A DNA stretch of 24,679 nt from a virus, in the IMG/VR virus record IMGVR_UViG_3300048032_000498, positions 1 through 24,679 of that record; one strand, 5' to 3'. Below the pieces are notes generated by a model. That model was not told the origin of the DNA. It saw only the letters and a program-made list of their open reading frames with translations, and ran no database searches. Numbering within the stretch: the first letter of the stretch is position 1; each line of letters opens with the position of its first letter. Positions 423 to 23,276 of this stretch are shown here, piece by piece. The position numbers and the translations under genes are program-made.

Positions 423-1634
423 TTAAATATTCAAAATACCTTGTCTATTATCTTTATCTTTATGCTTTAAATCTTTAACTATTTCGTTATGTTCTGGATT
501 TATGCTTGATATTGCTTTTTTATAATACGCTTTACGGGCCTCGGCATCAACTTTATTGTAAGCAGCTTTCTTATTAAGTTTAGTTTTACTTTTTGTACCT
601 TTCGGAAGGCTGTCTTCATGTTTTTTCTGGCTATCAACCATTTTATTATAAGCATGATGAGCTGCGGTAGCAGTTTTAGCTAATTTATGAAAAGTAGCAG
701 CATGTGTAGGACCGGCATATTCGCCATCTCTTACTTCTTCATAATGTGGATGATCTTCATGTTTATGATCATATCCTAATCTTGCATTATCTATATGTGT
801 TTCAGAAGGATTCTTTTGTTCAGCTTTTTTATGCCTTTCCATTTCATCATAATGATGATCTTCCTCTCCATTACCGTAATGATGGTCGTGATAATGGTTA
901 TAATTTGAAGTTGTAAACTCTTTTGTTTTATGAGTTTTCAGATGAGCACCTGCAGCATCGTGAGCATCATGATGGAGTTTTAAAGTATGTTCAGCATGAG
1001 CTATTCTCTCTTTTGCTTCTGGGGCGTGTCTTTTAAGCGCCGCCGTATGCTTTTTAATAGTAGTCACACGTTCTTCAGCATCACTAGGACCGTGGTATTT
1101 CCTGCGCTCTTTGTCTGCCGGGTCGTTTAGTCTATTTTCTGTAGCAGAGATTCGACTCGCAGATAAGGTACTACTATGAGTCATCGCTATACGAGTATGC
1201 TTTCCGGTATTTCCAGCAGCATCTACCCAATCTCCTTTAGGATGGGGCGCCATTGAGCCTTTATTACCGGGATTATGTTCTACAGTAGAATCCCAGAATG
1301 ATCCGTCTTTACCCGGAGGTCGCATTGAGTTTGGATTATCAGCATTACCTTTTTTGGTAATATTATAACCTTTGCTTAACCCTTTTAAGTTTCCTAATTT
1401 TTTGGCGTTACTTTTACTTTTATCACTCAAAGCAGCTTTTGCTTTTTCATGCTCAGCATCTTGGGCCTTGGCTCTATTACTTATATTCTTCATTCTTTCT
1501 GCATGCTTTTCAGGGTCACTTTTAAATGACGCTATTGCAGCATCTTTTGCCCGCCTAATTTTCCTAAAAAAGCCCTTTTCATTAAGCTGCTTCTGATGTT
1601 GAATATCTTCGTTCATCTGTTTAAAAGTTTTCAT
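423..1634 (-). CDS. Histidine-rich, highly charged core-type protein with capsid-targeting-like N-terminus
   Basis: The 403-residue product has no fold I recognise. It opens with MKTFKQMNED, matching the N-terminal tag found on seven other genes here and resembling the T4 capsid-targeting sequence. Residues 20-90 are Lys/Arg/Ala-rich and probably helical. Residues 196-340 are exceptionally rich in His (clusters such as HYHDHHYG and EEDHHYDEMERH), and the C-terminus is Lys-rich. Low complexity plus charge fits an internal virion or prohead-core protein that contacts DNA or is processed by the prohead protease. The His clusters could bind metal, but no standard ligand spacing is evident. A TATAAATA late promoter lies 38 bases upstream of the start, which supports late expression. 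The cadherin-like structural gene follows after 14 bases. Confidence 0.75.
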   Translation of the reverse strand: MKTFKQMNEDIQHQKQLNEKGFFRKIRRAKDAAIASFKSDPEKHAERMKNISNRAKAQDAEHEKAKAALSDKSKSNAKKLGNLKGLSKGYNITKKGNADNPNSMRPPGKDGSFWDSTVEHNPGNKGSMAPHPKGDWVDAAGNTGKHTRIAMTHSSTLSASRISATENRLNDPADKERRKYHGPSDAEERVTTIKKHTAALKRHAPEAKERIAHAEHTLKLHHDAHDAAGAHLKTHKTKEFTTSNYNHYHDHHYGNGEEDHHYDEMERHKKAEQKNPSETHIDNARLGYDHKHEDHPHYEEVRDGEYAGPTHAATFHKLAKTATAAHHAYNKMVDSQKKHEDSLPKGTKSKTKLNKKAAYNKVDAEARKAYYKKAISSINPEHNEIVKDLKHKDKDNRQGILNI

Positions 1635-1672
1635 GTCTACCCCATTCGATAATTTGCTAAACCATTTTACTA

Positions 1673-1680
1673 TATTTATA
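1673..1680 (-). promoter_or_regulatory. T4-type late promoter box TATAAATA
   Basis: TATAAATA reads on the minus strand, 38 bases upstream of the ATG at 1634 and just downstream of a terminator hairpin. The octamer is the T4 late consensus read by the gp55/gp33 system. The intergenic position between terminator and gene makes it more credible than copies inside genes. Confidence 0.65.
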
Positions 1681-1685
1681 CAAAT

Positions 1686-1716
1686 AAAAAAAGGAACAAA
1701 ACTAATTGTTCCTTTT
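1686..1716 (-). terminator. Rho-independent terminator, possibly bidirectional
   Basis: Arms GGAACAA (1693-1699) and TTGTTCC (1706-1712) are perfect complements around a six-base loop, extended by A/T pairs on both sides. Read on the minus strand the stem is followed by a run of seven T. It lies just past the stop of the small gene at 1739-1909 and just ahead of a late promoter. On the plus strand the T-run is shorter (TTTT). Confidence 0.75.
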
Positions 1717-1738
1717 CTATACTATTTCTTGTAAGGAA

Positions 1739-1909
1739 TTATGCTACCATATCCTCTAATTCATATATCTTCTGATCTAAATATACTTTTTTTGATTCTA
1801 GTTTCTTAGCTAAAGAATGGTTACCCTTTTGTTTTATTTCCTCTACATAAGCTTTGAGCTCAGTAGAATCTTTTTGTAATTTCGCTATTTGATTGTTATG
1901 TAAAACCAT
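1739..1909 (-). CDS. Small coiled-coil protein, 56 aa
   Basis: The ATG at 1909 is preceded by GGAG seven bases upstream, and the frame runs 56 codons to TAA. The product begins MVLHNNQIAKLQKDSTELKA and ends YLDQKIYELEDMVA. It is rich in Lys, Glu and Leu with heptad-like spacing, so it is probably a single amphipathic helix or short coiled coil. It has no Cys or membrane segment and no recognised family. Terminators flank it on both sides (1921-1956 upstream, 1686-1716 downstream), so it may be a separate short transcript or be reached by read-through. The good ribosome binding site and clean fit between terminators support it as real. Confidence 0.6.
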   Translation of the reverse strand: MVLHNNQIAKLQKDSTELKAYVEEIKQKGNHSLAKKLESKKVYLDQKIYELEDMVA

Positions 1910-1920
1910 TTTAGTTCTCC

Positions 1921-1956: not shown

Positions 1957-1996
1957 ATAAATCTAATTATAAGTATATTTTCCAATCATTATATAT

Positions 1997-2407: not shown

Positions 2408-2409
2408 TA

Positions 2410-8299: not shown

Positions 8300-8608
8300 T
8301 TACTTGCCGTATGCGTGTTTCTTAAATGTAGTTAACAATAGTTCTTTACCTCTATATTTTTTCTTTAAAGTATTAGCTTTTGAACTATTGAGTTTATATC
8401 TACGATCAGTTACTGGAACTTCTTTGACTCTACGCATCATTTCATGACCAAGCGGAATATTATCGTGGCCAGCAACTGGTCCACCGGCACTGATTGAATT
8501 AGCTGGGGCATCTTCTTGAACTTCATCTTTTTTATCATCTTTTTCAAGAGGCTTATAATTCTTTAGAGCCTCTTTCAAAGACTTCATCTGTGCTAGTTTG
8601 TTTTTCAT
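8300..8608 (-). CDS. Small basic phage protein, unknown function
   Basis: The 102-residue product begins MKNKLAQMKSLKEALKNYK, has an acidic-lysine linker with VQED, then a Gly/Pro/Asn segment (APANSISAGGPVAGHDNIPLG, residues 34-54), and ends very basic (KANTLKKKYRGKELLLTTFKKH). I do not recognise a family, although similar Asn/Gly/Ala-rich segments occur in small virion-linked proteins of marine phages. Its ATG overlaps the stop of the nuclease gene (ATGA) and its own stop abuts the i-spanin start, so it sits in one coupled transcript. A DNA-binding or internal virion role would fit the charge, but this is a guess. Confidence 0.7.
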   Translation of the reverse strand: MKNKLAQMKSLKEALKNYKPLEKDDKKDEVQEDAPANSISAGGPVAGHDNIPLGHEMMRRVKEVPVTDRRYKLNSSKANTLKKKYRGKELLLTTFKKHAYGK

Positions 8609-9408
8609 ACCTTCACCTTTGGTTTGATTATTCCTTGAGTTACCATATCTAATCCAATATCAGACTTTTTAGGCACTTTGATAGCTTGACACATTCCTGC
8701 CAAATTCTTGGGCGACGTATTAACCATAAAGATAATTGGATTTGCAGAAAGATATTTATGAGCGGCATCGATATAAGGAGTTTCAACTTCTTTTTTCCAT
8801 CTGGCCGCAAGCTTTGGTATTTTTTTAATGGCCGCCATTTGTTTCTGATTTACACCAGATTTTTCTCTGCCTAAAGCTCCTTTGGGGTCTGCCATATTTT
8901 TAAGTTCGAGGGCTGGACCGACTATTTTTGTCATATCCATAGTGGCACCTAATTTATAGTTAACCATATATCCGTCTCTAGTAAAATTGCCAGCTTTAAT
9001 TTCATAATTTTTACCGTCAACTACTAAATCAACTCCTGCAGAAGAGCCACCACCTAAGTGAGCATCATCTAAAATAAAGAATAACATGGCTTCACCAGGA
9101 CCAACACCTTTAATATCATACTTATGTAATTTTCCAAATGCGGTTGAGTCAATCCTTTTTAATTCCTTTAAAACTGAATTAACTTTGCCTACAGTTGGTT
9201 GACCTTTTATAGTGCCATCCATATCAAACTTTGGAAAATATTTCATATGAAATAAATGTTGAATTTCTTTTTTATATTTTAAAGAAGTAAAATCAGATCC
9301 TTTTAAATTAAATGATGTTAATGTTTGAGCCTTTGCTAAAAATTCTGTATCTAAATCTGAAACTGCCACTGCCGCCATTTCTTTGATATATTTTTTTAGC
9401 GTCATCAT
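8605..9408 (-). CDS. PD-(D/E)XK-type nuclease with capsid-targeting-like N-terminus
   Basis: The 267-residue product begins MMTLKKYIKEMAAVA, a variant of the shared tag with a possible protease cut after Glu10. A PD-(D/E)XK nuclease core follows: a helix Glu106 in GVGPGEAML, Asp127 in AGVDLVVDGKN, and Glu136-x-Lys138 in YEIKAG. This is the metal-binding D...ExK arrangement of restriction and repair nucleases. The C-terminal 80 residues include a Lys-rich patch and an INPIIFMVNT-like strand. If the tag works as in T4, the enzyme would be packed in the head and injected, perhaps to attack host DNA or competing elements. The gene overlaps its upstream neighbour by ATGA and the next gene likewise. 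No methyltransferase partner is present. Confidence 0.75.
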   Translation of the reverse strand: MMTLKKYIKEMAAVAVSDLDTEFLAKAQTLTSFNLKGSDFTSLKYKKEIQHLFHMKYFPKFDMDGTIKGQPTVGKVNSVLKELKRIDSTAFGKLHKYDIKGVGPGEAMLFFILDDAHLGGGSSAGVDLVVDGKNYEIKAGNFTRDGYMVNYKLGATMDMTKIVGPALELKNMADPKGALGREKSGVNQKQMAAIKKIPKLAARWKKEVETPYIDAAHKYLSANPIIFMVNTSPKNLAGMCQAIKVPKKSDIGLDMVTQGIIKPKVKV

Positions 9409-10394: not shown

Positions 10395-10931
10395 TTATTC
10401 TTTTTCTTTTTCCGGCTTTTGGAACATCAACGCATGGGCATGTTCTTTTGCGTTGATATCCATATCATAAGAATAAGATGATTTTGTTACTTTATATTTG
10501 TGACCCTTTTGGCTTTTAAGCGGTAGTTGGATAATTTTTACAAACGGCGATGGGTGAGGATGCGTGCGATCCAAATGAATTTTTCCACCTTTATAATGAA
10601 TTTTAATCGAACCTCTGTTATAATGTGGTTTTTTTGTGGTTCCAACATTTCTATCATCGGCGTGATGAATATAAGATACATAGCCTGAATGAGTGGCCTT
10701 TAAATTTTCAGGCTTGGGCCATTTACTGCTTGAACGAACTATTGCATTAGCAAGATGCCTATGATCATCCTTTTCATTCTTCGCATCGGGGATATGTGGC
10801 GATGAATACCGGTACCGATTTCCCTCGGCCCACTTATCAGCTTCTTGCTCAGCTTTATTGCCTTCTCTTATGTCTTGCAAAAGCGACGCATAAGTTTCTA
10901 TAATTTTTTCATTATCATCATTTGCAAACAT
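10395..10931 (-). CDS. Core-type protein with MFAN-family N-terminal tag, His/Lys-rich
   Basis: The 178-residue product carries the MFANDDNEK N-terminus and ends the tag in TYASLLQDIREGN, shared with the genes at 10956-11285 and 14753-15181. After the tag the sequence is unique: an RYRYSSPHIPDA block, then beta-type segments YVSYIHHADDRNV, GSIKIHYKGGKIHLDR and YKVTKSSYSYDMDINAKEHA. The composition is basic and His-rich. The tag's IRE-G matches the consensus cut site of T4-type prohead protease ([LI]-x-E before G/A/S), so this is probably a packaged internal protein. The body could be a small nucleic-acid or peptide-binding beta domain; no family is recognised. A strong GAGGAGA ribosome binding site precedes the ATG. 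Confidence 0.72.
   Translation of the reverse strand: MFANDDNEKIIETYASLLQDIREGNKAEQEADKWAEGNRYRYSSPHIPDAKNEKDDHRHLANAIVRSSSKWPKPENLKATHSGYVSYIHHADDRNVGTTKKPHYNRGSIKIHYKGGKIHLDRTHPHPSPFVKIIQLPLKSQKGHKYKVTKSSYSYDMDINAKEHAHALMFQKPEKEKE
10861..10931 (-). repeat. MFAN tag repeat, copy 1
   Basis: This 71-base stretch encodes the N-terminal 24 codons of the gene at 10395-10931. It is highly similar to 11215-11285 and clearly related to 15111-15181. Shared words include TTTGCAAA near the start codon and CTTTTGC followed by AGACATA near the far end (minus strand). Confidence 0.8.
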
Positions 10932-11285: not shown

Positions 11286-13639
11286 TATATTTCTCCTCTA
11301 ATGTATTTAGCATACTTATCCATATAGCTTTCGCCTACTACACCAGCATTAGCTGCAGGAGCTTCTGTAGATTTTACTTTATTTTTATCACCAGCAGTTG
11401 GATTTTTATTAGGTGTTGGTGATACTTTTGGAGCTTTTTTAATAGCTTCAGCTGTCTTTTTAGCCGCAACGTTACCATCAAACTCTGGTAGAACATCCGG
11501 ATGAATAGTATGCATATCAACAAATTCTTTTTCAGTCATTGTATTAGGACCAGCCTTATCAGTCCAACGACCTGCTGCCTGTTCATCGTTAGCTTGAGCT
11601 GCAGTTACCGGTGTTGAGTGATGAATTGCAGTTGGCTTAGCGGCTTCTTGAACAGACTTTGCTTTCTTTCTGTTCTCGCTGTTGCGGATCTTCTGGATCT
11701 CAGCACGGGCTGCTTTTTTGGAATTCTTATCGTCTCCATCATATGGATATTTCATACCGCGCTTTTCATATTCGGAGGAGAAGCGATACCTCTGTAGACT
11801 TTTCCTATCTGTTGGAATAAATACTTTTTTTCCAGCGACTTCTTGCACAGATTCACCAGCATAATGAGATGCATTATTTGCACTATTAGATAGTTTTCCT
11901 GCAGCTCTTAATTCTTTTTCTTTCTCTGGGTCCATAGTTTTTACCCTCATTGGCTCAGCTGGTCCACTCCCTTGCCAGCCACCGCGGGGCATACCTTTCA
12001 TTGGGTTATTAATATCGCCCGCGCCTTCTTTAGCCATTTTATCAATAGCCTTTTTAATACCAGCTTTACGATTACTAGCCTTATCTGAAGCACGGTTTGA
12101 TTTTTTAAAATTCTTGTCCATTACTCCAGGGTTTTTAGCTGCCATTCCACGCTTTTCATATTCGGTGGCGAAGCGGCTTTGTGTATCTACATCATCCATA
12201 GCTTTTTTGGCATAACTACTAAGAGTTTCCTTGCTCACTTCATTGATTTTAGCGGCGCGATCTTCTTGTATATCAACCCGAATATCTTCAACCATATTAC
12301 TAACACGATCCATAACAGATTCTTTTTGTGGACTATTGCCATGGCCATGCTTACGTAAATGTTCAAGATCATCTTTCGTAATTTTATCTCTTGGCGGAGT
12401 TTGTTTTGCTATTTTCTCTTGGCCAGGTGAAAGTTTAATATTAGCATCAACCCTCGCTTTTATGCGAGCTCGGTCTTTTGGTGATACCATACTACCATAG
12501 CCTTCATCAACCTCAACAGATTCCCAAGGAGCTTTAGCTACAGACACTTTATCTTTTGATTTAGCCATTCTTGCCGCTTTATCAAAATCGCGCTGCTGCT
12601 GTTTTGTACCAGGTCTAACAGGTGCAGTATCTGCTCCTTTTGCTGGAATTGACCTTTGATCATTTGCCATATTTCTATCATTATCTCCAGCTTTTGGTTG
12701 TTTACGTGAAGCTTTTAATAGTTTTTTATCATCAGGATATTTCCGTGACGATACCATCGTCGTGCCGCCTGTGCCACCACCACCGCCGCAAGCTTCTGCA
12801 ACCATTGCTTCAGCTTGATCTAATGTATAGCCCTGATCGATAAGTGCTAATACATCGTCTACATTTACTGATTCGTTATAAGATGCATGCAATTTACCAT
12901 CTCCTTCTTTTTTTGATAGGCTTACTCGATCACCGCCATATAATTCGCTTGCAGCGCCTTGGCCTAAATGATCAATTGCTAAACTATGAATTTTTTCTCT
13001 AGGTTCAGTGTCCAGTTCATCAGCGTGATCTCTGGCTTGATCCCAGTTACCGGCTTTAACATGTTTTGCATGATCTGCGAAATCTTTATGATCCATATGA
13101 TCTTTGCCGATTTCTTTACAATAATCCATAAGACCTTTATGGAAGGCGGCTTGACGTGCAGCACCTTCTTGTAAATCTGTTGATTCATCAATTTCTTCTG
13201 GTTTATCGTGAGTGTATCCCATCTTTTTCATACGCAAATGATCTTCTTCTTTTTCGGCCTTATAACCTTTACCAGTTTTCGGATCATACATCATATGTGG
13301 CTCAAACTTATCTTCTTTATCTTCACTAACCTTTGTACCTTCTTGATCATTTTTATCATCACCAGTATAAGCTTTAAACTTATCTTGATCATCACCGTCA
13401 TCTTTTTTATTAATAGCTTTTTTCACAGCTTTTCTTTTGTTATGAAGATATTCATCAGAGCTATCTTCATCACCATCATTATCGATGTCTTTATCATCGC
13501 GATCTTCGTGATCACCTTCTAATTCTTCAGGGTCTACTTTATCTAAAGTCTTAGCATGATTCTTCTTTGCTTCAGTATTTTTTTTCTCGACCATCTCAAG
13601 ATATGCCAAGCCTATGCTATTTAAATCTTTCGTTTCCAT
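11285..13639 (-). CDS. Large acidic modular core-type protein with EF-hand-like loop and ESV-type repeats
   Basis: The start at 13639 has GGAG seven bases upstream; an ATG four codons earlier (13651) lacks one. The product (784 aa) is modular. Near residue 51 is an EF-hand-like loop (DIDNDGDEDSSD, fitting D-x-D-x-D-G). Near 256-285 a VDDVLALIDQGYTLDQAEAM helix pair precedes a glycine linker. Two copies of a RF-x-x-EYEKRGM block follow (about 489 and 620), and it ends ESYMDKYAKYIRGEI. Short [EK]S-type peptides punctuate it (ESTDLQEG, ESVEVDEG, ESVQEV, KSVQEA), several fitting [LIV]-x-E cut sites. It lacks a recognised enzyme domain. A late promoter lies 38 bases upstream. It may act as scaffold or polyprotein-like prohead core, by analogy with T4 gp22 and the internal proteins. 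Confidence 0.75.
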   Translation of the reverse strand: METKDLNSIGLAYLEMVEKKNTEAKKNHAKTLDKVDPEELEGDHEDRDDKDIDNDGDEDSSDEYLHNKRKAVKKAINKKDDGDDQDKFKAYTGDDKNDQEGTKVSEDKEDKFEPHMMYDPKTGKGYKAEKEEDHLRMKKMGYTHDKPEEIDESTDLQEGAARQAAFHKGLMDYCKEIGKDHMDHKDFADHAKHVKAGNWDQARDHADELDTEPREKIHSLAIDHLGQGAASELYGGDRVSLSKKEGDGKLHASYNESVNVDDVLALIDQGYTLDQAEAMVAEACGGGGGTGGTTMVSSRKYPDDKKLLKASRKQPKAGDNDRNMANDQRSIPAKGADTAPVRPGTKQQQRDFDKAARMAKSKDKVSVAKAPWESVEVDEGYGSMVSPKDRARIKARVDANIKLSPGQEKIAKQTPPRDKITKDDLEHLRKHGHGNSPQKESVMDRVSNMVEDIRVDIQEDRAAKINEVSKETLSSYAKKAMDDVDTQSRFATEYEKRGMAAKNPGVMDKNFKKSNRASDKASNRKAGIKKAIDKMAKEGAGDINNPMKGMPRGGWQGSGPAEPMRVKTMDPEKEKELRAAGKLSNSANNASHYAGESVQEVAGKKVFIPTDRKSLQRYRFSSEYEKRGMKYPYDGDDKNSKKAARAEIQKIRNSENRKKAKSVQEAAKPTAIHHSTPVTAAQANDEQAAGRWTDKAGPNTMTEKEFVDMHTIHPDVLPEFDGNVAAKKTAEAIKKAPKVSPTPNKNPTAGDKNKVKSTEAPAANAGVVGESYMDKYAKYIRGEI
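11753..11785 (-). repeat. EYEKRGM coding repeat, copy A
   Basis: These 33 bases inside the large acidic gene encode RF-x-x-EYEKRGM and match 12143-12175 at 29 of 33 positions. DNA-level identity is higher than needed for the protein alone, so the duplication seems fairly recent. Confidence 0.75.
12143..12175 (-). repeat. EYEKRGM coding repeat, copy B
   Basis: This is the second copy of the 33-base coding repeat, 390 bases from copy A, in the same frame. Flanking sequences after the repeat are both Lys/Asn/Ser/Ala-rich but diverged. Confidence 0.75.
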
Positions 13640-13677
13640 TTTTGTCTCCATTTATACAAGCTTGGATATTATAGTTC

Positions 13678-14017: not shown

Positions 14018-14305
14018 TTAACATTTCCAACGTCTTAACGACATTGCTTTTCGTGTTGGTCTACCCTTTTCGTCTTTCATAGGGCCTTTCATACCGCTCA
14101 TACGAGCACAAAATGATTTTCGTCTTTTTGCATCTTTACTACCAGCTTTTACTTTACCAGTCACAGCGGTTTGTAAATTACCTCCACTTTTTCTATTAGC
14201 AGCATCAACTCCTTTTTGAGTCATACCAGCACCTTTATCAGTTGCTCTAAAATGTCCTTTGGAATCTGCCCCACGTTCAGAAATATATTGTTTAAAAGTA
14301 TCCAT
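14018..14305 (-). CDS. Small basic protein with capsid-targeting-like N-terminus (DUF6321-like)
   Basis: The 95-residue product starts MDTFKQYISERGADSKGHFR, a clear member of the shared-tag set with a possible cut after Glu9. The remainder is strongly basic: GVDAANRKSGGNLQTAV, then KDAKRRKSFCARMSGMKGPM and a C-terminal RKAMSLRRWKC. The RRKSFCARM-SGMKG block is, from memory, that of a small conserved phage and prophage domain listed as DUF6321; I have not checked it. Two cysteines, one at the very end, and the Arg/Lys content suggest binding to packaged DNA. GGAGGA in the last codons of the preceding gene is its ribosome binding site, so the two are coupled. Confidence 0.8.
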   Translation of the reverse strand: MDTFKQYISERGADSKGHFRATDKGAGMTQKGVDAANRKSGGNLQTAVTGKVKAGSKDAKRRKSFCARMSGMKGPMKDEKGRPTRKAMSLRRWKC

Positions 14306-14307: not shown

Positions 14308-14748
14308 TTATCCTCCAAACTCATGGCCAGCAACTCTTGCCATTTCCTTATTAAATTGTTCCTGTGAAGGCTTTTCTTTATATAGTTTAATAGAAATTTC
14401 AGGTCTTTCCTTACCTTTGATTCTCCAGTTATAGCCTTTTTCTTTATGTTCAGGTTTTGTAGTTTTTACAACACGTCTTTTATAACCAGCTTCCCAAGTT
14501 TCAGATTTTTTTTCATTAACTGATTCTGTTTTTATTTCATTTTTCATATAGTCACGAGCTGTATCAATATAATCTGTAGCTTTTGTAATTTTTGATTGAA
14601 CCCATTCGGGCATATTATCGTTATCACTTAGCATATCATGTAACTCTTGAGCAGCATCAATCATGGTCTTAAGTTGACCTTTAGACATGCCACCTTCATT
14701 GTTATATTCATTTTCTTTATTCTCTAATAGCTCTCTAAATGTTTTCAT
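14308..14748 (-). CDS. Core-type protein with capsid-targeting-like N-terminus and ESVNE linker
   Basis: The ATG at 14748 begins MKTFRELLENKENEYNNEGG, which matches the shared tag. Longer open frame upstream (to 14892) overlaps the preceding gene and is unlikely. Residues 20-75 are helical and include DNDNMPEWVQSKITKATDYI and DTARDYM, a block I recall from several marine phage internal proteins. After it comes TESVNEKKSE, an instance of the ES-type linker, then a basic beta-type segment (YKRRVVKTTKPEHKEKGYNW, RIKGKERPEISIKLY). The 146-residue protein therefore has two modules separated by a putative processing site. It starts four bases after the previous stop with only a weak AGATGA site. 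Confidence 0.75.
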   Translation of the reverse strand: MKTFRELLENKENEYNNEGGMSKGQLKTMIDAAQELHDMLSDNDNMPEWVQSKITKATDYIDTARDYMKNEIKTESVNEKKSETWEAGYKRRVVKTTKPEHKEKGYNWRIKGKERPEISIKLYKEKPSQEQFNKEMARVAGHEFGG

Positions 14749-14752: not shown

Positions 14753-15181
14753 TCATCTTTTCTTAAACAAAGGCTTTGTTTTGACGGAACCCTTTTGTGC
14801 AGGTCTTGATAACCGACCGATGGCTTTTTTTGCTCTAGCGGCCTTATCCATATTGTCATGATAATAATCTGACTGCATTTGCCTAATCTCATCAGGTGTT
14901 TTTCCGCTGGTGTCTATTCCTGAATTATCGAAATTTGCAAGGTCTGATTTTCTAAATTGTTTTTTAAGCTTTCTTTTCATTAAGATTTTACTAAGGTTAC
15001 CAAGGCCTTTAAATGGACCTTCTGATAACTGGTTTAAATCACTCTCAGTTAAATCAAATAAAATATCATCTAATTCTTCTGAAAGTGATTTCTCATTTGT
15101 AGATTCTTTACCTTCTCTTATGTCTTGCAAAAGAGCAGCATATGTTTTAATGTTTTTTTCATTGTCGTCGTTTGCAAACAT
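14753..15181 (-). CDS. Core-type protein with MFAN-family N-terminal tag
   Basis: The 142-residue product begins MFANDDNEKNIKTYAALLQD and IREG, the third member of the MFAN family and the most diverged. The following part is acidic and helical (SLSEELDDILFDLTESDLNQ, residues 32-51), then strongly basic (ILMKRKLKKQFRKSDLANF), and it ends in a Lys/Arg tail (RPAQKGSVKTKPLFKKR). It lies about 3.8 kb from the other two members, between shared-tag genes, so the family is dispersed through the cluster. AAGGA precedes the ATG. No fold is recognised; an internal virion protein is most likely from the tag and the charge pattern. Confidence 0.72.
   Translation of the reverse strand: MFANDDNEKNIKTYAALLQDIREGKESTNEKSLSEELDDILFDLTESDLNQLSEGPFKGLGNLSKILMKRKLKKQFRKSDLANFDNSGIDTSGKTPDEIRQMQSDYYHDNMDKAARAKKAIGRLSRPAQKGSVKTKPLFKKR
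15111..15181 (-). repeat. MFAN tag repeat, copy 3
   Basis: This 71-base copy encodes the start of the gene at 14753-15181. It is more diverged from copies 1 and 2 than they are from each other, mostly at third codon positions, which suggests selection on the protein tag rather than on the DNA. Confidence 0.75.
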
Positions 15182-15199: not shown

Positions 15200-17026
15200 T
15201 TATTTTTTAACTTTTGCGGCCAAATCTTTATCAGCTTTACCCCAAGTACCAGAAGACTTAGTAATAAATGAATTTACACGAGCCATGCCCCACTGTTCTG
15301 GAGTTGTACCTGGTCTATGACCAGTTTTCCAAGCAGCCATACCACGGTTATATACTTGCTTTAAAACACCAAGTGGCATTCCAGACTTTTCAGCTTTATT
15401 TTGTAAACCTTTTTTATTTTCATTTATATTGTATGATTCTTTTTGAGCACTACGAATAGCTTCAGGTGTAGGTGCACCTTTCTCACCTTTCTTTCTCATT
15501 CTCTCGCCACGTTTTCTCTTAGCATGAATATTTGCCCACAATCCAGCTTCATTTGGGCCCATGCCCATTGCTGCAGCTTTCTTAGTATGAATAGATGGTT
15601 CGGTTTCTGCTGTATCATCTCCAGGAGCTGGCTTATAAGCAGAGTTATCATCATCTGCTTTTTTGCCATGCTTTTTAAAATGTGCTTTACGATCATCAGC
15701 AGTACTTTTTGAAAGACCAGCATAATATGCTTTAGATTCATTCGTATAATATTCTTTTAATTTGTTAATAACATCTGCGGTTGCTTCACCTACATCAATA
15801 GGATCATGTTTATGTCTATTTCTTACACTATTATAATAATCCATTGCTTCTTTTCGTTCAGGCGATCCTTGAGGGTGCATCATAGCTTTTTGATATGCGG
15901 CTGTTACATCACTTGCAGTTACCTCATCTATTGATGATTGTAATACTTTAGCGTTCTTTTTACGAAATGTTGCTAAATCGTTGTCAGAATCTTGTCTAGC
16001 CTTTGAAGCTTTAGTTGCATCTTTTTCTCTATCAGTTTGTGTACGACCACTTGCTTTATCCATTTCACCAGAAATTCTAGATCTTGTTACAGATGATTCT
16101 TTTTTAAATCTAGATGGAGGTGCCGGTACGTCAACAACATAAAATTTACCATCTTTATGTTTCTGAACAAATGATTTATGCGAAGCTTCTTCCTTTCCTA
16201 CTAGATGATCATTATGACGCTCAGCTTCTTTACGACCTATAAAACCTTTGCTAACAAATTTCAGTTTAGGTTGGTCAAACTTTATATAAGTTTCATTCAT
16301 TTCTTCTTCCTCTTTGCCTTGGGACCGCAGCCGTAATCTTTTCTTAACTTCTTGAGGTGTAACTCTTTTAATATCGCCAACTGCTTTTGATGGATTACGA
16401 AGAAGACCAACTAAATCTTTTCTTAATTCTTCTCTATTTGCAGAATTAACATACATCGTAGGTAACCCTTCAATCTTTACTTTAAAATACATATCCTCAT
16501 TTAGACCAACCATACATGATTCACTAATTATTTCTACTACTGACATATCATACTCCGTTGATTGATTCATCATAGATTTTTGTAAATTAATCTTTTTTCT
16601 CATAGCATGAAACTTTGCTGAAGTAGCAGCTGCTTTATACGAACTTGCATTTTTAGCAGTAGCAAGTTTTATTCTTGCTCTATTTAATTTTGTTGAGGAT
16701 GTAGTAGTACCTTTTCCAGTTACTAATTGTCTTTTACTAGCTGCTCTTGCTCGGATTTTAGCACCACTTGCATTTTGTCTAGCTAACTCGACCTGTCTAT
16801 TTCCCCGTTTTTCGACTCTGGCATCATGACGTTCTTCTTTAGCTTTTTTCTCAGCTGCGCGTTTATTATCGAGTTCTTCTTTTCTTTTTTCCCGAGTAGC
16901 GGCCTGTTGTTTTTTCAGTTCTTCACGTTTTTTCTTTTTTTGTTCTCTTTCTGCAGCCTTTTCAGCCGGAGTCATAGGTGTAGCAGGTTGTCCAAAACCA
17001 AATATTTCTGATAGAGCCTTAGTCAT
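15200..17026 (-). CDS. Large basic modular protein with C-terminal DUF5824-like domain
   Basis: The 608-residue product starts MTKALSEIFGFGQP and has a long charged helix at 20-90 (KKKKREELKKQQAATREKRK style). Around 165-245 is an alpha/beta segment (MYFKVKIEGLPTMYVNSANR and beyond). Residues 495-529 hold GLWANIHAKRKRGERMRKKG, a block very common in phage internal proteins. Residues 538-608 (KAEKSGMPLGVLKQVYNRGM, then TGHRPGTTPEQWGMARVNSF) match, from memory, DUF5824. An ESYNINEN peptide sits exactly between the last two blocks, and SIDEV lies further upstream. The start overlaps the end of the previous gene by eight bases, with AAGGG as ribosome binding site. Probably an internal virion protein processed during head maturation. 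Confidence 0.75.
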   Translation of the reverse strand: MTKALSEIFGFGQPATPMTPAEKAAEREQKKKKREELKKQQAATREKRKEELDNKRAAEKKAKEERHDARVEKRGNRQVELARQNASGAKIRARAASKRQLVTGKGTTTSSTKLNRARIKLATAKNASSYKAAATSAKFHAMRKKINLQKSMMNQSTEYDMSVVEIISESCMVGLNEDMYFKVKIEGLPTMYVNSANREELRKDLVGLLRNPSKAVGDIKRVTPQEVKKRLRLRSQGKEEEEMNETYIKFDQPKLKFVSKGFIGRKEAERHNDHLVGKEEASHKSFVQKHKDGKFYVVDVPAPPSRFKKESSVTRSRISGEMDKASGRTQTDREKDATKASKARQDSDNDLATFRKKNAKVLQSSIDEVTASDVTAAYQKAMMHPQGSPERKEAMDYYNSVRNRHKHDPIDVGEATADVINKLKEYYTNESKAYYAGLSKSTADDRKAHFKKHGKKADDDNSAYKPAPGDDTAETEPSIHTKKAAAMGMGPNEAGLWANIHAKRKRGERMRKKGEKGAPTPEAIRSAQKESYNINENKKGLQNKAEKSGMPLGVLKQVYNRGMAAWKTGHRPGTTPEQWGMARVNSFITKSSGTWGKADKDLAAKVKK

Positions 17027-18731
17027 TTTTTGAACCCTTTAAAAGTACCCGAGCTTTAGATCTTGCAGCCATTGCTGTCTTAATTACTGGATCTGGTTTT
17101 TTTCCATATGTTTCTAAACCCTTTTTAATTTTAGAATAACTATTAGTGGCTTTATCATTTCCTGGTGCGTAACCGTCCATATCTGGACCTGACCGTTTCA
17201 TAGCACCCTCACCTATACCACCGGCGTCTGATACATCACTACCTGGATGTTTTCTTGTTCTAGTTTTAGACTTTGGAGTTGGTTTGACATCTGGCATAAC
17301 TTGACCTGGAGTAGAACCTACCCATCTTTTAGTGGTTTCTTTAGTTCCCCATCCAGTCTTATTATAAGCATCTAACTCAGCATCTTCACCTATTGTCTTC
17401 ATAACTCTTCCATCACGAGGAATCGGTTCAGCGAATACCGGTCTATTTCTATTACGGTTTGCTTTAAATTTATCTACGATCTTCCTACCTTTTGTCTGTA
17501 TTACTTTAGTAATAGGGTCTGCGATGCCGTATTTTATTGCAGCGCCTGCCGCTGTAATACCAAGACCTTTCAGCATTTCTGCTGAAGTAACAACATCATG
17601 TGCTAACTGAGTAGGATCTTCGTTAACTGACTCAATAGATTCAGTAACTTTTTTGCCTTTGGAATCATATTTACCCAGTTCCATGACCATTGCTTTCGCA
17701 TGCCATTGCGGGCTGTATGTTTCATGCCAATCCCAATCACGTGAACGCTTATTCCATTCCATAACTTTCCATTCGCCTTTATGGCGCTCATTTTGATCAA
17801 GTTGTTTTTCTATTTGGAATCGGCGGCCAGTAGAAAATGTAATTTCTTTTTCTCCATTAGGACCAGATTTTTTCCATTTTGGCCCTGCAACTTTTTTAAC
17901 TGCTTCATCAAGTGATTCAACTGCCTCAATCCATTTTCTTACAATAGATCCGTCTTCCTTTTCAAGAATCAAATAATTAGGTCCACGAAATGTGACTTCT
18001 GCTAATTCATCGGTATCTTTAATGCGTAAACGTTCACCAAGATTATAAATCTCGCCTTGAATATATTTTTCTCGTAGATCGCCTACAGATTCTAATTGCA
18101 CATGCTTATAGAATTCGGTTTCTTCTTTTAGACCCATACCAGATCTTACACCATTAAATAAGTCCTTTGAATCTTTATTACTAAAATTCTTTGGAAGGCC
18201 TTTTGTAAATTGATTAAAATCATTGCCACTGGCCGCTGCTCTCATTTTAGATGCAGACATACCATCTACACCTTCTGAGTCAGGGTCTCTTTCACCGGCT
18301 GATATTACATCAATTGTTCTAAAGTTATAGAAACCGTACCGTTGTCCAGTTTTACCATTATACTTTGTCAATAAAGATTTAAATTCAGTGATTCTATCTG
18401 ATCCAACTACCATTACTACATTTACAAATCCTTCATTGTAAATAGCATTAGCTGCATCAAATATTGTTTTAACATCTTTGTTTAACATAATATAACGAGC
18501 ATGCTTAGGCATCATTTTTCTAGCATATTTAACTTTATCATTATATAGTAATGGATTTTTCTTTTTATCATTTGTTTGAGAAAGATAAATTCGATATGGA
18601 TTATTACCTGACTTAGAAGAAAGCACCTCTAGCAGTTTTTCATGACCAATAGTTGGAGGATTCATTCTACCAAATGTAAAATAAAGTGTCTTTGCCTCTT
18701 CAACAATATACTGCTTAAAAGAATTAATCAT
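17019..18731 (-). CDS. Capsid-tagged nucleotidyltransferase fused to several small modules
   Basis: From the ATG at 18731 the product has 570 residues (a TTG two codons earlier is less likely). MINSFKQYIVEEA is the shared tag. The cytidylyltransferase-superfamily fold begins at once: FGRMNPPTIGH (residues 20-30, with T27-x-G29-H30 as the HxGH signature), VVGSDR (108-113) and SASKMR (159-164, the ISxxxxR-type signature). Such enzymes join a nucleotide to phosphate compounds, as in NAD or CoA synthesis; the substrate is unknown. After residue 200 come an SH3/KOW-like strand module (229-262), a Trp-rich module (293-345), a hydrophobic helix (386-405) and a basic tail. ES-type linkers lie at ESVGDL, ESLDEA and ESVNED between modules. 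Confidence 0.82.
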   Translation of the reverse strand: MINSFKQYIVEEAKTLYFTFGRMNPPTIGHEKLLEVLSSKSGNNPYRIYLSQTNDKKKNPLLYNDKVKYARKMMPKHARYIMLNKDVKTIFDAANAIYNEGFVNVVMVVGSDRITEFKSLLTKYNGKTGQRYGFYNFRTIDVISAGERDPDSEGVDGMSASKMRAAASGNDFNQFTKGLPKNFSNKDSKDLFNGVRSGMGLKEETEFYKHVQLESVGDLREKYIQGEIYNLGERLRIKDTDELAEVTFRGPNYLILEKEDGSIVRKWIEAVESLDEAVKKVAGPKWKKSGPNGEKEITFSTGRRFQIEKQLDQNERHKGEWKVMEWNKRSRDWDWHETYSPQWHAKAMVMELGKYDSKGKKVTESIESVNEDPTQLAHDVVTSAEMLKGLGITAAGAAIKYGIADPITKVIQTKGRKIVDKFKANRNRNRPVFAEPIPRDGRVMKTIGEDAELDAYNKTGWGTKETTKRWVGSTPGQVMPDVKPTPKSKTRTRKHPGSDVSDAGGIGEGAMKRSGPDMDGYAPGNDKATNSYSKIKKGLETYGKKPDPVIKTAMAARSKARVLLKGSKND

Positions 18732-18741: not shown

Positions 18742-20616
18742 TCACTTATTCTTATTTCTTTTACGATCAGCTTCCATTCTACGAGTAGCCGGTAATTGTT
18801 TTTGTGCTAGTTGTTTAATACGTGGTCCTAATTTAGCAATACGTTTTTCCATATCTGCCCGTCTTACAGCAGACAAATCAGTTTTGCTAGAGCCCTTTGT
18901 AAATTTTTTGATAAGATCAGATTTGACTTTTCTAATTGCTCTATTCATTAATTTTTCTTTTGTAGCAGTTCTATTTTTAGATCTTTTAATGCCAAGTTTA
19001 ATTCGTGGAGCAAGGATTTTCATACGTCTTGCTGCTGCTCTTCTCATGCTAGGAGTCCATGCTTCTGGCAAATCTTCTTCAGTTAATTCGTAATCTTCAT
19101 TTTGTGTTTCTTCAGCCATACGAGCTCTCATTGCTTGAAGTTCGGCATCTAACTTATCTCTTTTTTGTTGTTGATTTTTATTAAGTTGAGATTTATTAGG
19201 AACCATTTGAGCTAATTCGTCAACTTCAGTTGATTCTTTAGGATATGCATCTCTGTCATTCCAATCATGATCTTTAGGTAAATCAGCCTCAGTTCCAGGT
19301 CTCACCATCTTATTTTTAGCCGCAGCTTTACGCGCCGCTATTTGACTTGGAGTATTACGTAATGAAGCGACTCTTGCTTTTACTTCGGGAGACATTTCTT
19401 CATTTCTTACTTTTCGGCTTTGAGCAATTTTAGTGTCTATTTGCAAAGCAAGATCTCTAGTTTTTACGGCCTGTTTTAAACCTTTATTTAATTTTTTTCT
19501 ACTATCAGCCCATGATGCAGCTGCTGCATCTGAAGTTTCGTTCACATATTCTTTAACCCAATGACTACCATTTGGATCACTGCAATCATTTGCACAATCA
19601 GTTGTTGGTTTGTTTAGTTCATCACCACAGTCTTTGCAAACCATAGTGTGTGCTTCACTAACTTCAACAGATTCTCTTGACATTTTATCTGCCCTCTTAC
19701 TAATATCAGACAATGCCTTTTTAGTAGAACTCATTTCCTTTGGTTTCTTATTTCTACTCATATGCTTTTCATATTTCTTTGGGTCTATCTTTGGTGCTTT
19801 TTCATTAACTTCAACAGACGCACCCAAGTGCTGAACTGACCCAGCGTGAGCTTTTTTACTTTTTTCTTCAAAATCTTTAATTGCTGCATCTCGCAGCTCT
19901 CCAGGAGCAATACGACTGATTTCAGCGCCAGCATCTTCGGCAGCAGAATGCAAAGATGCTTGTTGTAGATGGTATTTTTTATTTTCTGGATCTCTAGTCA
20001 TCTGTCTTTCATGATGCAGCCTAGCAAGTTGATGGGCTCTGGTTCTATCAGACCGGTCACGATCTTCTTTTGGAGCCCAATTTGTGCCAATCGAACTAGG
20101 CAAAACAGATTCTTTAAAACCCATTCCTCTTGCCACATTATCGGGATTAACACCCATTCCTCTTAGCACATTTCCAGCTCTAGATTTTAATGTTTCTTTC
20201 GGTTCTTTTGCTGCTCTTGCTTTATCTTTTTCAGCATGAGGGCCTTTTCCCATTCCTCTGATTACATCATCGGGATTAACACCCATTCCTCTTGCCACGT
20301 TTTTAGCTCTTTCAACAGATTCTTTATGTACAGAATAATGTGGTCCATCATCGTGTGGAAAAGGTTGTTTGTCTAAATGCCGGCTAATCCTACGCCCAAC
20401 AAACTGCCCTACACGCTTTTTGCCTAGGGCCTTTCTAGTTGTTTTTACTAAAAAATGTCCATCTGGTCCATCGCCCATGACCATATATTTCATGCCAGCT
20501 TCTTTGCTATTATGCACAGCCATAATGTCATGGTTAAGACCAACTGAAATGTGAACGTGATGCCCATCTTTATTTTCATTAAGTGCGCGCAATAGTTTTG
20601 TGTATCTTTTATCCAT
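18742..20616 (-). CDS. Large basic modular protein with zinc-finger-like centre and Arg/Lys-rich C-terminus
   Basis: The ATG at 20616 has AGGA eight bases upstream; one two codons earlier overlaps the ligase stop. The product (624 aa) starts MDKRYTKLLRALNENKDG. Numbered from the earlier ATG, it contains a tandem repeat of RGMGVNPDD units (107-168), a His/Arg helix (195-225), a Cys cluster CKDCGDE...TDCANDC (329-347) that may bind zinc, and a highly basic domain at the end (AWTPSMRRAAARRMKILAPR, then RKVKSDLIKKFTKGSSKTDL) of a type common in marine phages. ES-type linkers recur (ESVERA, ESVLPS, ASVEVNEK, ESVEVSEA, ESTEVDEL). No enzyme motif is seen. DNA condensation inside the head, with prohead-protease processing, is the best guess. 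Confidence 0.75.
   Translation of the reverse strand: MDKRYTKLLRALNENKDGHHVHISVGLNHDIMAVHNSKEAGMKYMVMGDGPDGHFLVKTTRKALGKKRVGQFVGRRISRHLDKQPFPHDDGPHYSVHKESVERAKNVARGMGVNPDDVIRGMGKGPHAEKDKARAAKEPKETLKSRAGNVLRGMGVNPDNVARGMGFKESVLPSSIGTNWAPKEDRDRSDRTRAHQLARLHHERQMTRDPENKKYHLQQASLHSAAEDAGAEISRIAPGELRDAAIKDFEEKSKKAHAGSVQHLGASVEVNEKAPKIDPKKYEKHMSRNKKPKEMSSTKKALSDISKRADKMSRESVEVSEAHTMVCKDCGDELNKPTTDCANDCSDPNGSHWVKEYVNETSDAAAASWADSRKKLNKGLKQAVKTRDLALQIDTKIAQSRKVRNEEMSPEVKARVASLRNTPSQIAARKAAAKNKMVRPGTEADLPKDHDWNDRDAYPKESTEVDELAQMVPNKSQLNKNQQQKRDKLDAELQAMRARMAEETQNEDYELTEEDLPEAWTPSMRRAAARRMKILAPRIKLGIKRSKNRTATKEKLMNRAIRKVKSDLIKKFTKGSSKTDLSAVRRADMEKRIAKLGPRIKQLAQKQLPATRRMEADRKRNKNK
20120..20172 (-). repeat. 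RGMGVNPD coding repeat, copy A
   Basis: This 53-base segment inside the gene at 18742-20616 encodes RGMGVNPDNVARGMG. It closely matches 20249-20301, including a shared 22-base run around the Gly-Val-Asn-Pro codons. Each copy itself contains two RGMG units. Confidence 0.75.
20249..20301 (-). repeat. RGMGVNPD coding repeat, copy B
   Basis: This is the second copy of the 53-base coding repeat, 129 bases (43 codons) from copy A, in frame. It encodes VARGMGVNPDDVIRGMG. The unequal copy number of such units between related phages would be expected if they expand by recombination. Confidence 0.75.
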
Positions 20617-20618
20617 TT

Positions 20619-21845
20619 TCATCTTCCTGGTTTATCCCATCCTTTTAAAATATCTGGCGAAAAGTTGTTGTATGAAAATTCTAATCTGTCAACAATCTTT
20701 ACCGCATCACCACCTAATTTGTCTATAGCAACATATCCTTCTTCGCCAGTGACCTTAAATCCATTAGGTGTCTTAACGAAAGTATCAATGCTCTTGAGCT
20801 TATTAAGTATATTTATAAGTTTTAATTTTACAACAATTATTAACTTTTGCAAATCGAATATCTTTTTAAGATTTTGTTTATTCTTTGGTGAAAAGAATTT
20901 TAAAAATTCATCACGTTTTATCATTTGGGCATTTTTGCCTTTTTCAGTTTTACGCTTATCAATTTCTTTTTGATAGCGGGCAGTGACCCATTTAATTAAT
21001 GCATTTACATGCTTTGTTGTATCTTTAATTTGTTCACCTTTGCGAACAAATGTATTATTAAATGTCTCAATTGTTTGAGCTAAATCTCTATTATTTTCAA
21101 GAGTTTTTAATGTAGATGCACCAATTTGATTAAACAAAAAGCCTATTTCAGATAGTTTTTTATTTACATCTTCTGTTTCTTTAGCTGACATAGTAACTCT
21201 TGTTAAATCTCTAAGCATTGCATCTTGAGACCACACATCAGCACTTTTTCTTAGTTTTGAAACATCAACACCATAAGAAGCTCTCATCGTCTCAAATGAA
21301 TCACCGGTATACGTGGTATGCCATACGATACCCATCTTAGCTCTTTTTACTGCAGTTGCTGCAACAGTTCCAGCTGGTATAGCATATGCAATAGTGTTTG
21401 GATGAAATACTACGTACTTCTGTCCACCAATTGATTGAGTAGTAAGTTCTGATTTTGAATATAAAAAGTCTCCTTGGATCACACCTTTAATTCCAAGGGC
21501 AGGCAGATACTTTAAAGCTTCTTTTAATTTAGTATTTAGATCGCCTTTAGTATCAGCATCAATATCAGCATCGGTTTTATAAACCATAGGATTTTTATTA
21601 AAAATGCCTTTTTTAGCTACAAAAAACTTTCCATCATTTGGATCAATGCCAGCAAAAACGGCAGGAGCTCCATCCCACTTAACGCTTACTCTACCTTCTT
21701 TTTTACCGCCTAGCATATCCCTTAAATCTCTTAAAGCGAATATTGCCTGTCGAGTTCCATTCACACCACCATAAAGAACACGATCCTCAATATGAGTCAT
21801 GTGAGTGTTCTTTTGTTCTGTTAAATAATTTCCAAATCTAAGCAT
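20619..21845 (-). CDS. Capsid-tagged RNA/DNA ligase-like nucleotidyltransferase
   Basis: The 408-residue product starts with the shared tag MLRFGNYLTEQK. It then shows the covalent nucleotidyltransferase (ligase) motifs: motif I VSVKWDGAPAVF with Lys56 as the likely adenylated residue, KFFVAKKG (73-80), GVIQGDFLYS (121-130) with acidic D126 in the motif III region, EGYVAI (369-374) as motif IV, and AVKIVDR (381-387) as motif V with Lys383. Between motifs III and IV about 200 helical residues are inserted, which is unusual. It lacks an OB-fold. Family members join or adenylate RNA or DNA ends. If packaged, it could repair tRNA or DNA breaks made by host defence on entry. It starts with AGGAAA, ten bases after the previous gene. 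Confidence 0.78.
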   Translation of the reverse strand: MLRFGNYLTEQKNTHMTHIEDRVLYGGVNGTRQAIFALRDLRDMLGGKKEGRVSVKWDGAPAVFAGIDPNDGKFFVAKKGIFNKNPMVYKTDADIDADTKGDLNTKLKEALKYLPALGIKGVIQGDFLYSKSELTTQSIGGQKYVVFHPNTIAYAIPAGTVAATAVKRAKMGIVWHTTYTGDSFETMRASYGVDVSKLRKSADVWSQDAMLRDLTRVTMSAKETEDVNKKLSEIGFLFNQIGASTLKTLENNRDLAQTIETFNNTFVRKGEQIKDTTKHVNALIKWVTARYQKEIDKRKTEKGKNAQMIKRDEFLKFFSPKNKQNLKKIFDLQKLIIVVKLKLINILNKLKSIDTFVKTPNGFKVTGEEGYVAIDKLGGDAVKIVDRLEFSYNNFSPDILKGWDKPGR

Positions 21846-21854
21846 AATAGTTTC

Positions 21855-22424
21855 CTAAACATTTTTCGGAATGTATTCCTTAATTTTCTTTTCAATAGCC
21901 GAAATAATCTTGTTATGTGTTTGGCTTAAATAGCGATCTTTTCGTAATCTTTTAATAGCCAATACAGTTTGAGCTGCATATTTCTTTTGAAAGTCTGCTG
22001 GTCGAGTATCAATGTCTTGAACGTTTGCTAGTCTATCTGCTAACTTTACAACCAATGCCCAACTCGACATCTTAGCCATTTTGTTTGCAATATATTCACC
22101 TTTACCAATTGCATCAGATGCTGCTTTATCAGTAGTTAATTCTTGAACCATATCAGCAACAAGAGCACCAAACTGTTTAACTAAATCCTGATATGTAGTA
22201 TCTGTATCTTCAAGTGTATCATGAAGATAAGCAGCTTGAATCAAAGCTGATAAGTTATTAGACCTTTTAAATTGTTTTACAAATCGAGCAACTTCTTTTG
22301 GATGAGCAATATATTCTCCACCACTTTTTCTAAACTGACCTTTATGAGCTTTTGTTGCAACACGAAGAGCGGTCAAAGCACTTTCATTAAGAGGTTCATT
22401 CATATGTGATTTAAAATTAAGCAT
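21855..22424 (-). CDS. Capsid-tagged HD hydrolase of the RelA/SpoT (MESH1-like) type
   Basis: The 189-residue product starts MLNFKSHMNEPLNE (shared tag), then a complete small HD domain like the alarmone hydrolase half of RelA/SpoT or MESH1. Key residues are H27 (AHKGQFRKSGG), H41 (EYIAHPKEV), the HD pair H68/D69 with E72/D73 (YLHDTLEDTD), and D130/N134 (VVKLADRLANVQD). There is no synthetase, TGS or ACT domain. Enzymes of this type cut (p)ppGpp to GDP or GTP and pyrophosphate with Mn2+. In a phage it would damp the host stringent response, and if packaged it could act at injection. Hydrolysis of another nucleotide is possible. AGGAAA lies before the ATG, in the operon behind a PD-(D/E)XK gene. 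Confidence 0.85.
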   Translation of the reverse strand: MLNFKSHMNEPLNESALTALRVATKAHKGQFRKSGGEYIAHPKEVARFVKQFKRSNNLSALIQAAYLHDTLEDTDTTYQDLVKQFGALVADMVQELTTDKAASDAIGKGEYIANKMAKMSSWALVVKLADRLANVQDIDTRPADFQKKYAAQTVLAIKRLRKDRYLSQTHNKIISAIEKKIKEYIPKNV

Positions 22425-22433
22425 TGTATTTTC

Positions 22434-23276
22434 CTATATTACTTTACCGCCGCCAGCCGGAGCTTTAGCCAATCTAAAACTAGCCATAGCGTCTATTGAT
22501 GCGTGTTTTTTCGGACTATTTAGTCCTCGAGGCTGAATACGAACTTCAAGCTTTGCTGATAAATTTTTTAAAGAATCTAATTTTGTTAATCCATGCTGTG
22601 CAGCAATTTCACTCAGATCACTTTTTGATAAAATGCCATTAGTATCTACTAGCCATATTTTATCTTTTAACATCATAAATAATACACTTGCTGCCGATCC
22701 GGCTTTAAGATTTTTTACAAATTTAGTTTTGTAATGATCAATAATTTTTTGGCCAAGTACATCACCTGTAATTTGAGCAATTTGATAATTATTTGTTTGA
22801 TTAGCAAATTCTTGAGCTTTTGTTTTACGATTTTCTTTATCTTTTATAATAGTCATTGAACCAGAATATAATTTTTTAACGTCTTTACTAAAGTAAGTTT
22901 TAAGATCTTTCAATAATCTTTTACCATTAGTAATAGCTTCAGGGGTATTATTCATTATATCAATTAGCTCTTTCTTAGATTCACTCTTTAAATCTGGCGT
23001 TGAAAACTTTCTGCCGTTAAAATGCCAGTCTCTCATTGATCCCATTTGCGCTTTATAATCAGCTTTATATTCATAGTGTAAATCAATAGTCTTTCCATTT
23101 TTTAATTTAACTCTATAAGCAAAGTCTGGAAAACCAGCATCAAAGCCAGCTGGAGAAACTATAGCTTTCGATCCAACTAATTTATTTCCAAGATCAGCAA
23201 AAGCCTTATTTTCTGCAGCTTGCGCTTTAGCGCTTACTCCTTTTGCTTCAGTTATATAACTCTTAAATGTAAGCAT
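22434..23276 (-). CDS. Capsid-tagged PD-(D/E)XK-like nuclease
   Basis: The 280-residue product starts MLTFKSYITEAKG, the best match in this window to the T4 capsid-targeting sequence, with E10-A11 fitting a prohead-protease cut. A PD-(D/E)XK-like core follows: P50-D51 in AGFPDFAYRV, then E69-x-K71 in DLHYEYKADYKAQMGS after one hairpin strand. The C-terminal half is basic with beta-type segments (SAASVLFMMLKDKIWLVDTN) and ends GGGKVI. The nuclease call is moderate because only the core pattern is seen. It is the first gene after the late promoter at 23307-23314, so it leads the large late cargo operon. AGGAAAAG precedes the ATG. Confidence 0.7.
   Translation of the reverse strand: MLTFKSYITEAKGVSAKAQAAENKAFADLGNKLVGSKAIVSPAGFDAGFPDFAYRVKLKNGKTIDLHYEYKADYKAQMGSMRDWHFNGRKFSTPDLKSESKKELIDIMNNTPEAITNGKRLLKDLKTYFSKDVKKLYSGSMTIIKDKENRKTKAQEFANQTNNYQIAQITGDVLGQKIIDHYKTKFVKNLKAGSAASVLFMMLKDKIWLVDTNGILSKSDLSEIAAQHGLTKLDSLKNLSAKLEVRIQPRGLNSPKKHASIDAMASFRLAKAPAGGGKVI

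Follow-up and report, generated by a model that had tools for sequence, protein, structure and literature searches.

A probable T4-type capsid-targeting propeptide on unrelated proteins, including enzymes, of marine T4-like phages

We analysed a window of 24,679 nucleotides (IMG/VR virus record IMGVR_UViG_3300048032_000498, positions 1 to 24,679; coordinates below refer to this whole stretch unless another genome is named), a 24,679-base fragment of a marine T4-like phage of Kyanoviridae type, in which eight genes had been predicted to begin with variants of one short peptide and to continue with unrelated bodies. This N-terminal tag is very probably a capsid-targeting propeptide of the type carried by the internal proteins of phage T4, by which a varying set of proteins would be loaded into the prohead. 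The modular packaging code proposed in the original prediction is supported by the conservation of residues 4, 7, 8 and 10 of the tag, by the occurrence of tagged proteins in the virion proteomes of related phages, and by the presence in those phages of the gp21 protease and of gp23 maturation sites resembling the end of the tag. For the orthologues of the window proteins there is good evidence of packaging. Although the kind of signal is already known, its use on many families, including enzymes, is an expansion of the T4-type code, and it suggests that marine T4-like phages bring a variable assortment of enzymes along with their DNA.

The tag in the window and its conserved positions

All eight N-termini were found where they had been predicted, on the minus strand. 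The peptides were compared in register with the T4 sequence MKTYQEFIAE, with [FYLW] at position 4, [FYHLMW] at position 7, [ILVMF] at position 8 and E at position 10, and a slack of one residue; the register form was used because a looser, register-free motif picked up extra chance hits and was dropped. The expected resemblance to the T4 sequence held in exact register for six of the eight genes, which thus carry an N-terminal peptide of about 10 residues with the T4-type residues at 4/7 and 8/10: 8605-9408 (MMTLKKYIKE, DNA 9379-9408), 14018-14305 (MDTFKQYISE, DNA 14276-14305), 17019-18731 (MINSFKQYIVE, DNA 18699-18731), 20619-21845 (MLRFGNYLTE, DNA 21816-21845), 21855-22424 (MLNFKSHMNE, DNA 22395-22424) and 22434-23276 (MLTFKSYITE, DNA 23247-23276). 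The remaining two are degenerate. MKTFRELLEN (DNA 14719-14748) of gene 14308-14748 fails the register with E9 and N10, and MKTFKQMNED (DNA 1605-1634) of gene 423-1634, the weakest member, fails at positions 8 and 10 (N8, D10). None of the 175 internal methionines of the window matched the register, and 16 did of the 13,704 pooled from nine genomes and the fetched loci. For 106 candidate starts, the probability of at least six matches was 3.9e-9, and shuffling residues 2-31 of each open reading frame (ORF) N-terminus, taken from the first start codon, gave at most two matches in 5,000 trials.

The bodies behind these peptides differ. Gene 17019-18731 encodes a cytidylyltransferase/NMNAT-like protein of 570 residues with a long C-terminal extension (PHROG cytidyltransferase, E 9e-68), whose fold motif FGRMNPPTIGH starts directly behind the tag, as had been claimed. 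The 189-residue product of 21855-22424 has an HD_4 phosphohydrolase body (E 8e-16), the 408-residue product of 20619-21845 a DUF6267 body (E 5e-102; 68% identity to the protein of phage C48C1, with tagged homologues in C48C1, DLP6 and Melnitz), and the 95-residue product of 14018-14305 a DUF6321 body (E 2e-20). No Pfam or PHROG match was obtained for the 280-residue body of 22434-23276, of which a 96% identical homologue retains the tag as MLTFKNYIIE. The protein encoded by 8605-9408 (267 residues) keeps E10 invariant in an alignment of seven sequences and contains an invariant stretch, G(V)DxVVDGKxYExKAGN, which as a motif only recalls PD-(D/E)xK nucleases; naming its fold was given up, the structure model being too weak (predicted local distance difference test score, pLDDT, 57). 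Regarding the degenerate members, 14308-14748 (146 residues) starts at an ATG inside a longer ORF, its close relatives starting identically, and 423-1634 has a highly charged body of 403 residues of no known family. The original prediction that most bodies are nucleotide or nucleic-acid enzymes was thus borne out for the cytidylyltransferase and the HD_4 protein, but not for DUF6267, DUF6321 and the four bodies with no family or with a weak match of unknown function.

To assess which residues of the tag are retained, homologues of three window proteins were gathered by their bodies alone and their N-termini were then aligned. Glu10 was found in 62 of 62 DUF6267 proteins, in 71 of 71 cytidylyltransferases and in 28 of 34 distinct HD homologues, and F4 in 57/62, 60/71 and 32/34, respectively. 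Position 7 was mostly F, Y or H. Position 8 was I or L in all 62 DUF6267 proteins, L, I or M in all 71 cytidylyltransferases, and I, L or M in 25 of the 34 HD proteins, and positions 2, 3, 5 and 6 were mostly variable. Among the tagged DUF6267 homologues (n=65), 46 distinct tags occurred. Mutagenesis in T4 has assigned targeting to residues 4 and 7 and processing to residues 8 and 10 (PMC9026906). The wide variation of the tags, with positions 4, 7, 8 and 10 nonetheless held, indicates a constraint at the protein level that coincides with the T4 determinants.

In the HD gene of the close relatives L002, L008, L012 and L195 the tag reads MLNFKSHINQ (E10 to Q), which offers a natural test of the need for E10.

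Tagged families and fused modules in related phages

The genes of the window matched T4-like phages of Kyanoviridae type, the closest complete relatives being C48C1, DLP6 (Stenotrophomonas), Melnitz (Methylophilales), HTVC008M (Pelagibacter) and cyanomyoviruses. Membership in this group was indicated by core genes, with exonuclease/RNase H-type and ribonucleotide reductase genes in the window, together with the best relatives. In the 151-kb IMG/VR contig G001, most window genes lie in one matching block.

On related IMG/VR contigs, the tag was present at the start of 268 of 1,125 ORFs of at least 150 residues vs 7 of 7,043 internal methionines. The tagged bodies fell into 41 clusters, 22 of them with at least three members. 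Two clusters were rejected as tagged families, an Hsp20 cluster (MGFDHLFNELEF) and a ribonucleotide reductase cluster (MSPELSLLIDEA), both evident chance matches; a few other small clusters are probably chance matches too. Once these were removed, about 25 unrelated plausible families remained, so that the search for the tag in related phages found one signal preceding unrelated bodies, as in T4. Among the further tagged bodies are a poly(A)-polymerase/CCA-type nucleotidyltransferase (PolyA_pol, E 7e-18), an HNH endonuclease (HNH_3, E 3e-5) and, as a weak match, a KptA-like protein (E 0.02); several others look, by eye only, like PD-(D/E)xK nucleases or ADP-ribosyltransferases.

Across the window and its relatives, some small modules stand alone behind a tag in one place and form part of a long core protein in another. 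The large basic low-complexity protein of 626 residues encoded by 18742-20622 (minus strand) ends in a module (residues ~517-623) that C48C1 (63080-63451, MLSFKQFVSEV) and IMG/VR contigs encode as a separate tagged protein. Two neighbouring modules (~493-528 and 535-603) of the 608-residue core-type polyprotein encoded by 15200-17026 (minus strand) are stand-alone tagged proteins in G001 (110533-110697) and C48C1 (64854-65126), and the linker between them is KESYNINE. Likewise, the C-terminal domain of the 14308-14748 protein is a stand-alone tagged protein in L050 and L063 (MIGFKTFIQEAESWEAGYKRR), and is preceded in the window by the linker TESVNEKKSETWEAGYKRR. In two of these cases the linkers of the window read KESYNINE and TESVNE, and sequences of this type are possible protease sites. 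Of five proteins examined, three showed an excess of the motif ES[VIYL]: five observed vs 0.5 expected in 11285-13651 (minus strand; a disordered core-type protein of 788 residues with internal ES[VIY] repeats), a count reached in 0 of 500 shuffles; three vs 0.5 in 18742-20622; and four vs 0.6 in a third. The 11285-13651 protein also gave a short, weak match to the virion protein S-SCSM1_92.

Internal ES[VIY] was also noted across the long disordered proteins of the minus strand (11285-13651, 15200-17026, 17019-18731 and 18742-20622), with enrichment in three of these four, and at some places at joints between modules that are tagged elsewhere.

Cleavage sites, virion proteomes and alternative explanations

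A gp21-type protease gene, on which the prediction depended, was detected (PF03420) in all eight complete relatives examined, and in three close relatives it shares a contig with tagged genes. In addition, the tag ends in a way similar to gp23 maturation sites: FGSFLTE|AEIGG in T4, where the site is known, and GGFLTE|TGPTN in C48C1, AFLSE|AAPTN in Melnitz and RSLTE|AAPTN in G001, where the sites were deduced by alignment.

The evidence from virions comes from the published proteomes of four relatives, and concerns orthologues and other tagged proteins. The cytidylyltransferase was present in purified virions of S-SM1 (PMC3037559), S-CREM2 (PMC10665884), S-SCSM1 (PMC9602691; also marked so in the sequence record) and S-SZBM1 (PMC9146016). 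All of these virion-detected cytidylyltransferases begin with a tag (MKKFSAFLNEAE, MKNFSSFLTEAD, MKSFLQFLKEAA and MRFRQFIIEAVA, respectively). The DUF6321 body of 14018-14305 is homologous to the C-termini of the virion proteins S-CREM2 ORF137 and S-SCSM1_29. In S-CREM2 the register motif, in a relaxed form fixed after its N-termini had been seen, was found in 5 of 52 virion proteins vs 1 of 167 others (Fisher p 0.003), and a stricter motif in 3/52 vs 0/167 (p 0.013). The five tagged virion proteins are the S-adenosylmethionine (SAM) lyase ORF6, the kinase-like ORF14, the cytidylyltransferase, and ORF13 and ORF136 of unknown function. ORF6, named SAM hydrolase, belongs to the S-AdoMet lyase family (PF23780, E 2e-19), and the sequence right behind its tag Glu is FDRDQESLEESSLSR; the corresponding sequences of ORF154 and ORF14 begin with ADEKQQQAPK and EETEAHK, respectively. 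As a small contrast, the DUF6267 homologue of S-CREM2 is untagged and absent from the virion list.

Genes 12-15 of S-CREM2 (OR473000, 7704-13331, minus strand) form a block of tagged or near-tagged virion proteins (ORF12, ORF13, kinase-like ORF14 and ORF15). The tag-like stretch of ORF12 begins at about residue 17, not at the N-terminus, and the Cas9 label of this protein was not confirmed by Pfam.

In the mechanism that we propose, the N-terminal peptide would dock the protein, through the aromatic residues 4 and 7, on the scaffolding core of the prohead during head assembly. Once the prohead is complete, the gp21-type protease would cut behind Glu10, with an aliphatic residue at position 8, and the body would stay in the capsid with the DNA, probably to be injected into the host; this last step, and the injection of mature bodies in general, would follow the example of T4. 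We infer both the docking on the core and the role of the enzymes in the host. A signal so short, and not tied to any particular body, could be placed on about 25 unrelated families. The set so loaded would include the cytidylyltransferase, the HD hydrolase, the CCA/poly(A)-polymerase-like enzyme and the HNH nuclease, and in S-CREM2 the SAM lyase and the kinase. A head-loading tag would explain why such enzymes recur in purified particles.

Several observations weigh against this interpretation. Two of the eight window tags are degenerate, and of the eight window bodies no more than two, the cytidylyltransferase and the HD protein, can be recognised as enzymes. A PF03420 search of the window's own record gave no match, as expected from a fragment. 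Removal of the tag by gp21 after Glu10 is deduced by analogy with T4 and from the likeness to the gp23 sites, and in some HD homologues E10 is replaced by Q or another residue. HTVC008M has gp21 but no strict tag, its cytidylyltransferase reading MKTLKELLRKK. Regarding the virion data, the S-CREM2 test carries the post hoc choice of motif mentioned above, and in S-SCSM1 the motif, with slightly wider spacing, was found in 1 of 48 virion-marked proteins vs 6 of 234 others, mostly loose chance matches, with a good tag (MKTFKQFMSESV) on a gene that has no virion mark. The motif does not separate virion proteins from others there, and no general predictive power is therefore claimed from S-SCSM1. 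Furthermore, proteomes of particles purified in caesium chloride (CsCl) may hold contaminants, as the S-CREM2 authors acknowledge, who left the choice between cargo and contaminant open (PMC10665884).

Other explanations of the shared N-terminus were considered. The tag could be a docking and cleavage propeptide of bodies that act only within the head, by filling the scaffold or condensing DNA, and that never reach the host as enzymes. A short, basic or disordered character is indeed common among the tagged or fused bodies, and several T4 core proteins are degraded to peptides by gp21 (PMC9958956); however, conserved folded bodies of catalytic type (cytidylyltransferase, HD_4, PolyA_pol head domain, HNH_3 and SAM lyase) are tagged as well, and in T4 the mature IPI protein enters the host by injection and blocks one of its restriction enzymes, which makes a purely internal role unlikely. 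It is much less probable that the tag targets another site of the virion (baseplate, tail or neck) or a host structure, its likeness to T4 being convergent. Virion proteomes cannot separate head from tail, and no functional relatives are known for half of the window bodies, but the register motif was on none of the detected, named tail and baseplate proteins of S-CREM2, and the tag ends in a sequence similar to the gp23 maturation site, where cleavage takes place in the head.

The least probable explanation, to which we give hardly any weight, is that the shared start acts at the level of DNA or translation, through ribosome loading, coupling, or a recombination joint for moving genes, and that the peptide itself is without function. 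The short N-termini are alike beside the start codons, and 56 of 74 same-residue pairs in the window use the identical codon. Against it, the peptides diverge across relatives, as the 46 tags of the DUF6267 proteins illustrate, and conservation is mainly confined to positions 4, 7, 8 and 10; Glu10 is invariant in two families, and the pattern coincides with the T4 mutational data.

Taking the capsid-targeting propeptide as the best explanation, we lean slightly towards a broader possibility, namely an open cargo code by which proteins that are tagged, or fused through protease sites such as KESYNINE and TESVNE, would be loaded and delivered; marine T4-like phages would swap this cargo (SAM lyase, nucleotidyltransferases, nucleases, kinases and hydrolases) among themselves. 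If true, one could predict from the sequence alone which proteins many ocean viruses inject. Enzymes in cyanophage particles are hard to tell from contaminants, and a short predictive signal would give them a route into the particle. The tag would turn hypothetical proteins into likely injected effectors, making the earliest infection step of abundant ocean phages testable, and its natural variants (e.g. MLTFKSYITEA and MINSFKQYIVEEA) may serve for loading proteins into phage heads.

Known systems and further candidates

The T4 internal proteins IPI, IPII and IPIII (MKTYQEFIAE), together with gp21, resemble the system described here in the length and N-terminal place of the tag, in residues 4, 7, 8 and 10, in the unrelated bodies, and in a gp21-type protease encoded in the same genomes. 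They differ in that the T4 tag is recorded for a handful of small basic proteins (with one tag shared by IPII and IPIII, that of IPI being similar), whereas about 25 families, including enzymes, are tagged here, and in that modules of the marine phages occur now tagged, now fused. Foreign proteins, GFP among them, are packaged by means of the T4 sequence (PMC9958956), and a review of T4 considered that the signal could in general help T4-like phages to acquire varied proteins (PMC9026906). In the literature searched, which included that review and left subscription journals outside, no report was found of the tag on many families across marine T4-like phages or as an explanation of virion enzymes, and a prior description is possible.

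T4 Alt is likewise a packaged enzyme, an injected ADP-ribosyltransferase trimmed by gp21, and some tagged bodies are, with weak support, ADP-ribosyltransferase- or KptA-like. Alt was not among the T4 register matches, and to our knowledge it has no FxxY[IL]xE tag. The ejection proteins of phiKZ-like giant phages (SPN3US and 201phi2-1), compared from the literature only, are also many different head-loaded proteins with propeptides cut behind Glu; on the other hand, these phages are distant, with phiKZ-type head genes and other propeptides with almost no determinants beyond Glu, whereas the relatives of the window have T4-type head genes. A further parallel is given by the virion enzymes of the cyanomyoviruses S-SM1, S-CREM2, S-SCSM1 and S-SZBM1, which include orthologous cytidylyltransferases and other enzymes in particles. 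The available parts of the source papers name no packaging signal and leave contamination open, and the tag would supply the mechanism.

The KWDGAPA motif of DUF6267, which is invariant together with GDFL, recalls ligase-like KxDG nucleotidyltransferases. A fold assignment was set aside, since the model was too weak (pLDDT 69) and a PDB search gave no match at E<=0.001; the DUF6267 profile likewise had no meaningful match among sequences of solved structures.

A second shared N-terminus, MFANDDNEKxIxTYAxLLQDIREG, precedes three different bodies of the window (14753-15181, 10395-10931 and 10956-11285, minus strand), and several bodies in the close relatives L010, L173, L179 and L272. This peptide may be a further signal for targeting to the core, with IRE|G at its end.

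In model phages, the tag predicts internal proteins that have so far gone unrecognised. The hypothetical T4 protein gp61.1 (AF158101, 18966-19130) begins with MKTFKEFIKEDMVAG, a full register match, and is thus a candidate. Several candidate internal proteins were also noted in KVP40 (AY283928), where 37733-39178, 39187-39834 and 57882-58160 begin with MLGNFDSFLSEN, MKQFCNFLAEVQ and MDNFIEFIVEAE, respectively.

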